Shown here: positions 23,343-31,370 of the stretch, one piece after another
Layout: each line of letters begins with the position of its first letter
Numbering within the stretch: position 1 is the stretch's first letter
Source: an uncultured Clostridia bacterium
GTDB taxonomy: Bacteria; Bacillota; Clostridia; Oscillospirales; Ruminococcaceae
Assembly (NCBI GenBank): GCA_947627455.1
Contig: CANQWC010000019.1
Location: forward strand, 1 to 41,029
Length of the DNA stretch: 41,029 bases
Direction: 5' to 3'
Program-made: the position numbers and the translations under genes
The notes under the pieces: generated by a model
What the model saw: the letters and a program-made list of their open reading frames with translations, nothing else
What the model was told of the DNA's origin: nothing
Databases searched by the model: none

Positions 23343-24641
23343 TTAAATGACCGCCAGAACAAGCATCAGCAGGAATATCGCGAGGATAACGCCGATGGTG
23401 ATAAACCCTGCGATAGCGCCCTTTCTGCATGCCTTATAGTTTCTCATGTGCCTGAATTTCTTGAAGATAAGCCCCGCGATGATGCCGAGAACGGGGAGCA
23501 GGAAGGAAAGAATGACGTAAAGCTTGCTGCCCGTGTCGTGAACGGGTGCGCTGAGGAACTGGGCCTCAGCGGCGGCCTCGGCGGCGTCAAGCTCCTCATC
23601 GGTCTTCGCGTTGAGCTTTTCGGGGTCTTTGGTGATGGTGATGGCCTTGACCGGCTCGCCCTTCTCCCTGATTTCCTTTGCCTTCTCGATCTCCGCCTTG
23701 TTGCCGTAGATCCAGTGGTCGTGGCCGATGCACACAAACTCGGGCTTGTCGACGCTGTAGTCGTGAATCGACGGGTCGTAGGTATAGAGGACCTTGTTCT
23801 TTTCAAGCTTCGGGTCGGGAATCGGTATCGCGGAGATAAGCGAGTGGGTATAGGGATGCAGCGGGAAGTTAAATAGCTCCTCCGCGTCGGCTATCTCGAC
23901 GATTCTGCCCTTATAGATAACGCCGATCCTGTCCGAAATAAATCTTACGACCGAGAGATCATGGGCGATGAAGAGATATGTGAGGTCCTTTTCTCTCTGG
24001 AACTGTTTCATGAGGTTCAGGACCTGCGCCCTGACCGAAACGTCGAGCGCCGAGATGGGCTCATCGGCAACGACCATTTCGGGCTCCATTACCATCGCCC
24101 TCGCGATTCCTATTCTCTGGCGCTGGCCGCCCGAGAATTCGTGGGGGTAACGGGTGAGGTGCTCGGGCAGAAGGCCTACCGCCTCGATCATGTTCTCGAC
24201 CTTTTTGACCCTGTCCGCCTCGTTTTCAAAGAGGTGGAAGTTATAAAGACCCTCAGAGATGATATAGTCGACAGTTGCGCGCTCGTTGAGCGATGCGGCG
24301 GGGTCTTGGAAAACCATCTGGATATTTCTTATTACCTCGCGGTCAAGAGCATGGGAAATTTTTCCCGAGATCTTTGTTCCGCGATAGTAGATTTCGCCGC
24401 CCGCAAGCGGGTTTACGCGGATAACCGCGCGGCCGATGGTTGTCTTGCCCGAGCCCGACTCGCCGACAAGCGAGAAGGTCTCGCCCTTATAGACATCAAA
24501 AGAGGCGTCCTGAACGGCGCGGACGGCGTTATCGCCTTTGCCGAAAGTAATATCAACGTTTTTAAGCGAAAGAAGAATTTCCTTGCCGTTTTCGTCGACG
24601 GGGCACTCGCCCAGAAGGGTATGTTTTCTTTCTGTACTCAA
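23343..24641 (-). CDS. oppF: Oligopeptide-type ABC importer ATPase with two-helix membrane tail
   Basis: Second ATPase of the importer. The ABC domain is complete: Walker [11 protein letters not shown]-loop [10 protein letters not shown], signature FSGGQRQR, Walker [13 protein letters not shown], switch His in IAHDLSVV, then the Opp-type C-terminal region [13 protein letters not shown]. From about residue 330 an acidic, Ala-rich linker leads to two hydrophobic helices (about 373-393 and 408-432) separated by the basic stretch [15 protein letters not shown]. This is unusual for a cytoplasmic ATPase, and OppF normally ends soon after the HPYT block. The start is TTG at 24641 with GGAGG 9 nt upstream. 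oppD ends 14 nt before it. Confidence 0.85.
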
Positions 24642-26425: not shown

Positions 26426-27409
26426 TTACATATGCGTTCTCGGGTCTGAGGCATCGCCGAGGTTCTGGCCGACCACATAAAGAACGACAGTGATTATAGA
26501 GGCTATCGCGACAGGGCTCCAGAATTCCATTTCCCAGCCCGGGGTGACCATCGCGGGCTCAGCCGAATAGATAAGGCGGCCGAGCGACATCTCGCTCATG
26601 CCCATGCCGATGTAGGCGAGGAATACCTCGTAAGAGATATAGCTCGGAAGCTCGGTCGCGAGCATCGTGACTATAACCGAGGTCATGAACGGGAGGATAT
26701 TTTTAAGAGCGATTTTTACGGTCGAAGTGCCGAGGCAGCGGCTCGCAAGGTTATACTCGCGGTCGCGGATAATGATGACCTGGGTTCTGATGAAGTAGGC
26801 TATGCCGAGCCAGCCGATTATCGTCATCGCAAAAACCATCGTCCAGAAGCTCGGGGTAAAGAGCATCGCCATGACCGAGATGATGAGGATCAGCGGCACG
26901 TTGCCGACGATGTTATAGACCTCGGTCATGAAGATATCGACCTTTTTGGAGAAGCCCCAGATGGCGCCGATGAAAACGCCGACGGTCATGTTTATCGCGG
27001 CGCAGATGAACGCCAGCGAGATCGAGATTCTCGAGCCGTACCAGATCGAGTCAAAGGTCGATTCGCCCGAAGCGCCCGCGCCCAAGATCCAGTGAATGTT
27101 CTTTCCGAACATATTCATGGCTTCGGCAGGAGAGAGGTGCTTTGATTCGGGGTTCATCAGGTTGATGAACGGGTTGACCTCGGAATCATAATGGATAATT
27201 GTCGGATAGACGTAAGCAAAGATGATTATGAACAGGAACAGTGCAAGAATGATAATGTTGATCCTATGGTGGAAGAACACCCTGAACACCGAGCGCCAGT
27301 AGGAATAGCGCGGCGCGGTGATCTTCTCGGATTCGAGTTCGTTGTGGTCGACGGGCGCGAAGAGCTCCTCATCGGTCATGTTGTACTTGATATTAAGTTC
27401 TTTATCCAT
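26426..27409 (-). CDS. oppC: Oligopeptide-type ABC importer permease C
   Basis: Inner-membrane permease of the DppC/OppC family, 327 residues, close to the normal length. A cytoplasmic N-terminal segment precedes the first helix (INIIILALFLFIIIFAYVYP). The coupling motif with conserved EAA-type Gly is REYNLASRCLGTSTVKIALKNILP. The end is the typical SPVAIASIITVVLYVVGQNLGDASDPR. The ribosome binding site GAGGTG overlaps the oppB stop codon, with 6 nt between genes, so coupling is tight. Confidence 0.92.
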   Translation of the reverse strand: MDKELNIKYNMTDEELFAPVDHNELESEKITAPRYSYWRSVFRVFFHHRINIIILALFLFIIIFAYVYPTIIHYDSEVNPFINLMNPESKHLSPAEAMNMFGKNIHWILGAGASGESTFDSIWYGSRISISLAFICAAINMTVGVFIGAIWGFSKKVDIFMTEVYNIVGNVPLILIISVMAMLFTPSFWTMVFAMTIIGWLGIAYFIRTQVIIIRDREYNLASRCLGTSTVKIALKNILPFMTSVIVTMLATELPSYISYEVFLAYIGMGMSEMSLGRLIYSAEPAMVTPGWEMEFWSPVAIASIITVVLYVVGQNLGDASDPRTHM

Positions 27410-29129: not shown

Positions 29130-31370
29130 TCAGAAGAGACCGATATTCTTGGCCATGTAGCCGTAAGCCTGAATGGTATCGAGATAGGTCTGAGCGTCGC
29201 CGTAGTCAGGGCCCCAACCGGAACCAGTGGAAAGGTCGAAGTTGGCCTCAGCACCGTTGGAGAATCTGTAAGTAGCGCCGTTAAGAGCAGTGCTGTCGGG
29301 GAAGGCGATGAGGTTTACAATAACCTTGCCTTCGAGGGCAGACTCAATGCTCTGCTTAACAACGTTAGCACGGTTGACAGCGATCTCAGCGTCAGTCTCG
29401 TAAGGATAGTCAACGTAGATAGGCTTGTCAGCAGAAACCTCAACGCCCTGCTCAGCAAGCTTCTGGATAGCGATCTCGAGCTGAGCCTTAGCGAAGTCGG
29501 GGTTGTACCAACCGTCGAAGCCGTCGCCCGAAGCGGTATCATCGCTCCAAACCTTGATGGCTACGCCGTCAGCATCAAGCTGAGCCTGCTCGATCTGGCC
29601 GAAGGCAGTACCTGCGGGGAAGGTGGTGGCAGTGCCGTTGATGTCAACAGTGGTCTCAGCAGAGAGGAACTGGAAGGTGCCCGGGACATAAGAGTTACGG
29701 ATGCTGTTGTACTTAAGCTCTTCGCCAACGGAGCAAGCGTTGTAAGAAGCGCGGTCAAAGGCGGTGAGGACAGCAAGACGGAATTCCTCAAGAGCCATAG
29801 CCTGCTTGGTGCGAAGCTGCTCTTCTTCGGTCTTAGGAGATACGCCCATGGTAGGATCGTCGTAGTTTGCCCAAGTTCCGCGGTTGACGTTCATCCAGCC
29901 GCAGTAGGTGGTGCCTGAGCCGTCGGAAACGTAAGCATACTTTTCAAAGACAGTCTCGGTGTCGCCGTCGAGTACATCGACCTTGGCGCTCTCGAGGTTA
30001 GGACCGGAGATACCGGCACCGGAGATAGCGCCGGACTTGGCCTCTTCGTAAGAACGGGTTACATCAGAACCGTCGTTGTAGGTGTAAACAAGGTTGTGAA
30101 CGTTGATGGAATCAGGATTCCAGTAAGTCGGGTTAGCGGTGTAGCTGGTGATGTTCTTTTCGGTGAAGTTGGTGATGAGGTAAGGACCGCAGTAAGCAAT
30201 GTTAGCAGGGGTCTTGCCGTAGTCACCGGGGGTGTACTCTTCGCCCTCGGCGCTGAAAGTACCGCCCTGAGATCTGTAGAAGTCACGGTTCAGAGGAGCG
30301 AAGCAAGCATAGCCGAGCATGGTGGTGAAGGGCGGGAAGGGAGCAACGAGAGTATACTGAAGAGTATAGTCATCGATAGCCTTTACGCCAACCTCGTCAA
30401 AGGTAGCGGTACCGTTGAGGAAGTCGTCGAAGCCGACAAGGCCGCAGCCGTCGGATACGCTGAGGAGGTAGCCGAGGGCGTCAGCGTTGTCGAGAAGGTG
30501 CTCAACAGAAGCAACCCAGTCGTCAGCGGTAACTTCGCCGATCTCGGAACCCTGCTGGTCGACCCACTTTACACCCTTGCGGATGTGGAAGGTGTAGGTA
30601 AGACCGTCGTCAGAAACCTCATAGCTCTCGGCGAGGCCGGGCTGCTGAATGCCCTTGGCGTCGTATTCGAGGAGGTTGTCATAAGTACCCGCAATGAACA
30701 TGGAGTCAGAGGTGTAGGAGGTTGCGATGGTATCCCAGATGTTGATCTCATAACCGTTGGTTAAAGTGTAGGTGTCAGAGAAGGTGTAGCCCTTGCCCGT
30801 GAGGTATTCCTTGGCAGCTGCGCGGTAGGCGTCAGCGCTCTCAGCGTTAGACCACATGGTAAGAAGCTCGGCGCGGTCAGCAGCGGAGATGAGCTCGTTG
30901 GTAACGAGACAGGTGTGATAGCGGTATTCATCAAGGCCCCAGAGAGTGGTTGCTGCGTTGGTACGGGGAACAACGCGGGTCATAGCGTAGTTACCGCCCT
31001 GCGTCTGAATAGGAAGGAAAGCGCCGCTCTCGAGGAGCTTGGCCTCAGCAAGAGCCATCTTGGCCATGCGAAGGTCGCCTGTCTCTTCCTTTGCAGAAGC
31101 GTAGGACTCGGCGTAATCGCCAAGAGCATAGTCATAAATGATTTCGTCTGCTTCTTCCTTGTCCATATCTGCCAGAGCAGTGAAGTCAAGGTAATCAGCG
31201 GTGGTTTCGGCGCTGTCATCAGGTGTATCGACAGCATCGTCACCGTCGTCAGGTGTGTCAACTACTTCGTTGCCGTCGTTGTTGTCGGGCGCGGGAGTAG
31301 GATTGTCGCCGCAAGCTACAAGGCTGAAGAGCATAACCATAGCAAGCAGCAGTGCTAAGAACTTTTTCAT
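29130..31370 (-). CDS. oppA: Family 5 (oligopeptide-type) solute-binding lipoprotein with permuted layout
   Basis: Captures peptides or another oligomer outside the cell for the OppBCDF importer. Lipoprotein signal with lipobox LVAC (Cys20), then an acidic linker containing two VDTPDDG repeats (21-57). Residues 80-165 (RMAKMALAEAKLLESGAFLP, then GGNYAMTRVVP) look like the segment that normally ends such proteins. The usual N-terminal blocks start only at about 200 (TYDNLLEYDAKG, QPGLAESYEVSDDGLTYTFH), and the chain stops at 746 right after GWGPDYGDAQTYLD, which is usually followed by another 100 or more residues. So the C-terminal part seems moved to the N-terminus. The ATG at 31370 has GGAGG 10 nt upstream. 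It has its own promoter as first gene of the operon. Confidence 0.85.
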   Translation of the reverse strand: MKKFLALLLAMVMLFSLVACGDNPTPAPDNNDGNEVVDTPDDGDDAVDTPDDSAETTADYLDFTALADMDKEEADEIIYDYALGDYAESYASAKEETGDLRMAKMALAEAKLLESGAFLPIQTQGGNYAMTRVVPRTNAATTLWGLDEYRYHTCLVTNELISAADRAELLTMWSNAESADAYRAAAKEYLTGKGYTFSDTYTLTNGYEINIWDTIATSYTSDSMFIAGTYDNLLEYDAKGIQQPGLAESYEVSDDGLTYTFHIRKGVKWVDQQGSEIGEVTADDWVASVEHLLDNADALGYLLSVSDGCGLVGFDDFLNGTATFDEVGVKAIDDYTLQYTLVAPFPPFTTMLGYACFAPLNRDFYRSQGGTFSAEGEEYTPGDYGKTPANIAYCGPYLITNFTEKNITSYTANPTYWNPDSINVHNLVYTYNDGSDVTRSYEEAKSGAISGAGISGPNLESAKVDVLDGDTETVFEKYAYVSDGSGTTYCGWMNVNRGTWANYDDPTMGVSPKTEEEQLRTKQAMALEEFRLAVLTAFDRASYNACSVGEELKYNSIRNSYVPGTFQFLSAETTVDINGTATTFPAGTAFGQIEQAQLDADGVAIKVWSDDTASGDGFDGWYNPDFAKAQLEIAIQKLAEQGVEVSADKPIYVDYPYETDAEIAVNRANVVKQSIESALEGKVIVNLIAFPDSTALNGATYRFSNGAEANFDLSTGSGWGPDYGDAQTYLDTIQAYGYMAKNIGLF

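Follow-up and report, generated by a model that had tools for sequence, protein, structure and literature searches.

Has the chain of an oligopeptide-binding lipoprotein been rotated in an uncultured Clostridia bacterium? The window, a stretch of 41,029 nucleotides from a member of the Ruminococcaceae (assembly GCA_947627455.1, contig CANQWC010000019.1), contains at 29130-31370, on the reverse strand, a gene for a substrate-binding protein (SBP) of family SBP_bac_5. A preliminary description, made from the letters alone, had proposed that the segment usually closing such proteins stands here before the blocks that usually open them. The gene was found to encode a real circular permutant, conserved among relatives and, within the scope of the searches, new to the OppA family. 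Very probably it is a natural permutation of an OppA-like protein of Ami/Ali type, an oligopeptide-binding lipoprotein of cluster C that serves the OppBCDF importer encoded next to it.

Chain order and homology to linear proteins

The open reading frame (ORF) was intact, running from an ATG at 31370 to a stop codon at 29130-29132 and encoding 746 residues. A Gram-positive-type lipoprotein signal with lipobox, recognised by pattern (LVAC, residues 17-20), opens the chain and is followed by the acidic linker that had been announced. As described beforehand, a C-terminal-type segment comes next: RMAKMALAEAKLLESGAFLP begins at residue 101 and GGNYAMTRVVP ends at 135, before the usual N-terminal blocks, which were found from residue ~199 onward. 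The early stop at residue 746 was confirmed as well, the core ending in GWGPDYGDAQTYLDTIQAYGYMAKNIGLF, but the chain runs 24 residues beyond the D of the GWGPDY block, slightly further than had been described.

Residues ~199-746 matched the pneumococcal proteins AliC, AliB, AmiA and AliD from their mature N-terminus to just past GWGPDY, and residues ~70-180 matched the C-terminal ~110 residues of the same four proteins. In phmmer searches against PDB the core matched AliC, AmiA and AliB at E values of 5e-66 to 7e-59. Residues 209-744 aligned with AliC chain positions 22-505 and residues 74-173 with positions 511-613; the corresponding pairs were 213-734 on 28-498 and 54-183 on 502-627 for AmiA, and 196-745 on 4-501 and 83-176 on 515-609 for AliB. 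Taken singly, the second stretches were weak (E 0.082, 0.056 and 1.5 for AliC, AmiA and AliB, respectively). A profile of the front module (13 rows, residues 60-200), compared with 177,635 distinct PDB sequences, retrieved at E<=1 only AliC (3.1e-7), AliB (5e-6), AmiA (1.2e-5) and AliD (1.3e-3), and all four matches fell at the C-terminal ends, at chain positions 499-628.

Three further comparisons pointed the same way. Aligned with hhalign, 47 modules matched 33 linear tails at E 4.5e-18, against 0.23 and 0.38 for two regions of these linear proteins that served as controls; the tails came from the 34 of 41 linear proteins that displayed the anchor motif, less one whose tail was too short. 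When the module was moved behind the core, the alignment score rose by 30-75 for six linear relatives, whereas shuffled modules (100 per relative) reached at most 11-28. When the chain was rotated in steps of six against these relatives, starts 190 and 196 were among the best for all six; the three that were scanned finely displayed best-start plateaus at 174-200, 174-196 and 165-202. By these alignments the swapped order exceeds a chance match.

Each of the two parts thus has its homologue in one and the same linear protein, at the exchanged position; no part is missing or duplicated, and the content is complete but rotated, as had been suggested. Instead of the canonical order I-II-I-III-I known from AliD, homology yielded III(end)-I(last)-alpha19 region-I(first)-II-I-III (domain limits from excerpts of PMC11192437). 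In these terms the counterpart of the front module in linear Ami/Ali proteins comprises the end of domain III, the last part of domain I and the start of helix alpha19.

The only Pfam match was SBP_bac_5 (PF00496; 139.4 bits against a cut-off of 32.4), in one nearly full-length stretch from residue 243 to 734 and from profile position 3 to 361 of 368, with no visible truncation. A C-terminally truncated match, with a second one at residues 60-165, had been predicted and did not appear. The outcome is uninformative, since the match covers almost the whole profile and the Pfam model therefore does not reveal the rotation.

The front module might be a separate extra domain, and the core a truncated SBP able to close with no C-terminal segment. 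We regard this as very unlikely: the only PDB relatives of the module at E<=1 were precisely the missing C-terminal segments, and a count that includes the module leaves no part absent or duplicated. Structure models leave some room for such a domain. The model built from a 13-sequence alignment was mediocre and did not dock the module confidently, while the module modelled alone folded poorly (predicted template-modelling score 0.39) and displayed no confident likeness to solved folds, with no match at E<1 and no SBP_bac_5 protein among the matches listed (best 50 per list). The low score, however, would also fit a piece that needs its core, and the models neither support nor refute the fold. 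Two scans of viral contigs for more relatives with which to deepen the alignment found none.

Conservation among relatives

In a scan of GTDB contigs 12 loci were retrieved, and each of them had the permuted order. In searches of whole genomes, judged by matched range with E-value limits varying from 1e-10 to 1e-50, near-full-length matches were found in 18 out of 31 genomes of the genus (10 of these 18 were fetched and confirmed), 4 out of 148 of the family sample (one interrupted by Ns), 23 out of 394 of the order sample, 5 out of 391 of the class sample and 2 out of 398 of the phylum sample, both from the class; these counts are lower bounds, as samples overlap and few candidates were scored per genome. 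The permuted genes of these genomes spanned ten family codes (f1, f13, f14, f16, f17, f20, f21, f24, f39 and f52). The permuted gene of L011 lies on a 3,975-base contig titled as a Pseudomonadota metagenome-assembled genome (MAG), although it groups among Clostridia rows and is possibly misbinned.

Among 94 fetched ORFs with a core match of at least 60 bits, the module preceded the core in 53 and followed it in 19; in 22 no module was found, and in none were there two. The 53 entries correspond to 48 distinct ORFs (the window gene recurs as L002 and L048, L004 as L039 and L049, and L044 as L054). A stop codon ended 52 of the 53 (47 of the 48 distinct ones), L067 running into a contig end, and the lipobox pattern was present in 50. 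Only 0-8 residues were left after the core match in the 53 permuted entries, versus 44-325 in 41 linear ORFs, some of whose long values reflect partial core matches. The segment was located at the C-terminal end in the solved AliC, AmiA, AliB and AliD and in 19 of the 41 linear relatives. Profile matches to module and core were separated by 22-27 residues in 44 of 47 distinct proteins, the N-interrupted L018 being left out, and by 31, 39 and 39 residues in the others; in the window protein this gap is 173-195.

Ratios of nonsynonymous to synonymous substitution (dN/dS, NG86) for module, junction (26 residues) and core were 0.163, 0.247 and 0.171 against L004, 0.148, 0.427 and 0.199 against L005, and 0.120, 0.154 and 0.164 against L008, while a fourth pair, with L014, was saturated. 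No second copy of the module was detected elsewhere in the window, the only other match having an E value of 6.

The genome is a 40-contig assembly, and a frameshift or assembly error hiding a normal C-terminus had been considered from the start. No frameshift and no remnant of the module were found in the window, and the relatives end at the same place. With an intact ORF, the same order in 48 distinct ORFs, 47 of them closed by a stop codon, and low dN/dS in both parts, the probability of a frameshift, an assembly error or a pseudogene is practically negligible and this explanation was rejected.

Phylogeny and origin

A quick maximum-likelihood tree of the core columns, with 47 permuted and 41 linear rows (duplicates and L018 left out, midpoint root, no bootstrap), united all permuted rows behind a single branch with a support of 99 in the SH-like approximate likelihood ratio test (SH-aLRT). 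Linear rows L020, L081, L086 and L095 adjoined this clade (SH-aLRT 95); as linear rows were gathered with the permuted protein as query, their sampling near the clade is thin. With this rooting the permutation appeared inherited, linear relatives lying outside the clade. The permutation inferred in the preliminary description is thus supported by the homology of both parts to one linear family in swapped order, by 48 distinct ORFs, by a single clade and by an operon position shared with three of four linear sisters.

The same four proteins ranked highest among linear matches to the core profile and took four of the top five places against the module profile, so that a common gene lineage of module and core is favoured. 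This speaks, weakly as the module is short, against a chimera, in which a front piece from a different SBP paralogue would have replaced the original tail. The identity of the module to linear tails is low, and an origin of this kind was raised for another permuted binding protein, TpMglB-2, by its authors (PMC4990184, excerpt). A chimera seems unlikely to us; it would differ in origin only and lead to the same permuted topology, so that its probability overlaps with that of the permutation as such.

Natural permutation within one gene would have begun with its tandem duplication or fusion. The front of the first copy, except for signal and lipobox, and the tail of the second copy would then have been lost. 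No duplicated intermediates or tandem SBP genes were seen in six stretches, beside four linear and two permuted genes.

Predicted anatomy of the permuted protein

According to excerpts of PMC11192437, AliD domain I consists of residues 29-63, 191-296 and 583-617, domain II of 64-190 and domain III (lobe 2) of 297-582, and its C-terminal helix alpha19 (622-652) lies on lobe 1; in AliB, W500 and D503 hold the amino end of the peptide and F521 lines pocket P2. These features were transferred by counting through alignments, assuming that AliB limits follow those of AliD. The permuted chain would accordingly end near AliB residue 528 and start near 530, with its break in domain III directly behind the GWGPDY block. 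Residues ~72-125 probably complete domain III and ~126-160 domain I, whereas ~163-195 would form the alpha19 region running into the old N-terminus in domain I (lobe 1), so that the former C-terminal end would be joined to the former mature N-terminus via ~23 residues. W719 and D722 should correspond to W500 and D503, and M739 (or its neighbour Y738) to F521.

Judging from the solved linear relatives AliB, AmiA and AliD, the folded protein would be the same closed, two-lobed Venus flytrap, both crossings between the lobes being kept and the peptide being bound through W719 and D722. With the break in domain III and the former C-terminal helix region bridging the old ends in lobe 1, the lipid tether should leave lobe 2 (domain III) instead of lobe 1.

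Among proteins with a recognised lipobox and a tether of over five residues, permuted tethers (n=45) displayed a median length of 53 residues and a median net charge of -11, versus 24.5 residues and -2 in linear relatives (n=36). The permutation might define a lobe-2-tethered class whose long, strongly acidic tether emerges at the cleft rim close to pocket P2 of the peptide site and contributes to gating or docking, altering closure or hand-over to the permease compared with AliB/OppA; this functional extension we consider doubtful. The permuted protein of a Lachnospiraceae MAG (L013, 2552-5419) carried, from lipobox to module, a tether of ~250 residues consisting largely of TEAPTEA-like repeats. 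In two other frames the match to the window protein was confined to its signal peptide and acidic tether (G175:C18:25196-25417, residues 1-66; G166:C55:529-711, residues 1-59); these frames may be other lipoproteins or remnants.

Gene organisation and operon context

Table 1. Features of the permuted gene and of the neighbouring opp genes, with coordinates in the window
Feature	Coordinates	Strand	Basis
Circularly permuted SBP_bac_5 lipoprotein gene, 746 aa	29130..31370	-	ORF, Pfam, phmmer
Signal peptide and lipobox LVAC (residues 17-20, Cys20), residues 1-20	31311..31370	-	Translation; lipobox by pattern only
Acidic tether, residues 21-71	31158..31310	-	Sequence
Front module, residues 72-172	30855..31157	-	Homologous to C-terminal end of linear Ami/Ali proteins
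Junction between former C-terminus and former N-terminus, residues 173-198	30777..30854	-	Rotation scan, profile-match gaps
Core, residues 199-746, former mature N-terminus to just past GWGPDY block	29133..30776	-	Pfam, phmmer
W719 to D722, aligned with AliB W500 and D503	29205..29216	-	phmmer alignment
OppB-type permease, 530 aa	27416..29008	-	Pfam, flank comparison
OppC-type permease	26426..27409	-	Pfam, NCBIfam-type model matches
OppD-type ATPase, 585 aa	24656..26413	-	Pfam, NCBIfam-type model matches
OppF-type ATPase	23343..24641	-	Pfam

Genes of OppB, OppC, OppD and OppF type were located downstream of the permuted gene on the same strand (Table 1). An SBP gene beside oppBCDF is usual for peptide importers, without being strictly defining. 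oppB was next to the permuted gene in all 12 loci with flanks read, and B, C, D and F followed in order in 11, some of them cut by contig ends; L011 ends within oppB. Three of the four linear sisters also stood directly before oppBCDF (L095 in L098, L081 in L096 and L020 in L099), and the fourth (L086 in L097) had no oppBCDF beside it within the stretch read. As permuted genes and linear sisters both precede opp genes, the permuted gene holds the place of the linear gene in related operons. In the window, ~330 residues preceded the permease domain match of OppB (331-524).

A second OppD/OppF-like pair lay directly upstream of the permuted gene in L008 (2722-5558), where two opp operons may stand in tandem. 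OppD of the window displayed extra sequence between its two ATP-binding cassette (ABC) halves, its best ABC stretch starting at 309; it matched the Mycoplasma OppD model NF043079 from 1 to 556 of 561 at 723 bits, below the cut-off of 740. The OppD frames beside three linear sisters were shorter (360-383 codons). The similarity of OppC and OppD to Mycoplasma proteins suggested kinship with Mycoplasma OppA; model NF043077 matched none of 299 genomes and also none of 14 controls, which made this search uninformative. Against NCBIfam the front module gave weak, unrelated matches only.

Comparison with known binding proteins

No permuted SBP_bac_5 protein was found in titles and abstract beginnings of the open-licence literature, a scope outside which most subscription papers and all of bioRxiv lie. 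In the excerpts of PMC2588589, PMC10601554, PMC2265533, PMC10326533, PMC5069341, PMC7683729 and PMC8270828, permutation referred to other proteins, an engineered ribose-binding protein, phage DNA or reference titles.

With linear members of the SBP_bac_5 OppA/DppA family the window protein shares the PF00496 match, but the four solved ones and 19 of the 41 linear relatives carry the segment at their C-terminal end. The pneumococcal proteins AliB, AmiA, AliC and AliD, oligopeptide-binding lipoproteins of cluster C, are homologous to it along almost all of the mature chain when the swap is allowed for, and also share the W and D holding the peptide end, the lipoprotein nature, the oppBCDF-type operon and a large OppB/AmiC, the long N-terminal part of OppB being comparable with the large extracellular part of AmiC (498 residues) (PMC11192437, excerpts). 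In contrast to theirs, its order is rotated, with the alpha19 equivalent internal and joining the old termini, and its tether, probably attached to lobe 2, is longer and more acidic than that of the fetched linear relatives.

In the literature searched, one natural permutant among transporter binding proteins was met: TpMglB-2 (Tp0684) of Treponema pallidum, a glucose-binding lipoprotein of Type I / cluster B, permuted in common with its relatives; its authors call it Type Ic/Cluster Bc (PMC4990184, excerpts). In both cases the binding lipoprotein of an ABC transporter is naturally permuted, and the chain is broken within a single lobe. They differ in structural cluster: the core described here is homologous to cluster C proteins and matched SBP_bac_5 only in Pfam, not the sugar-binding fold of Type I / cluster B. 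The permutation of TpMglB-2, moreover, adds a fourth crossing at the hinge (PMC4990184, excerpts), whereas the window protein should keep its two lobe crossings.

The nearly full match to the Pfam model illustrates how profile annotation can hide such rearrangements. The permutation also suggests a place at which new chain ends are tolerated in the OppA/AliB fold, which is useful for biosensor design. Since both chain orders occur in homologous oppBCDF operons, the question of how much the choice of lobe for the membrane anchor matters can be put directly.
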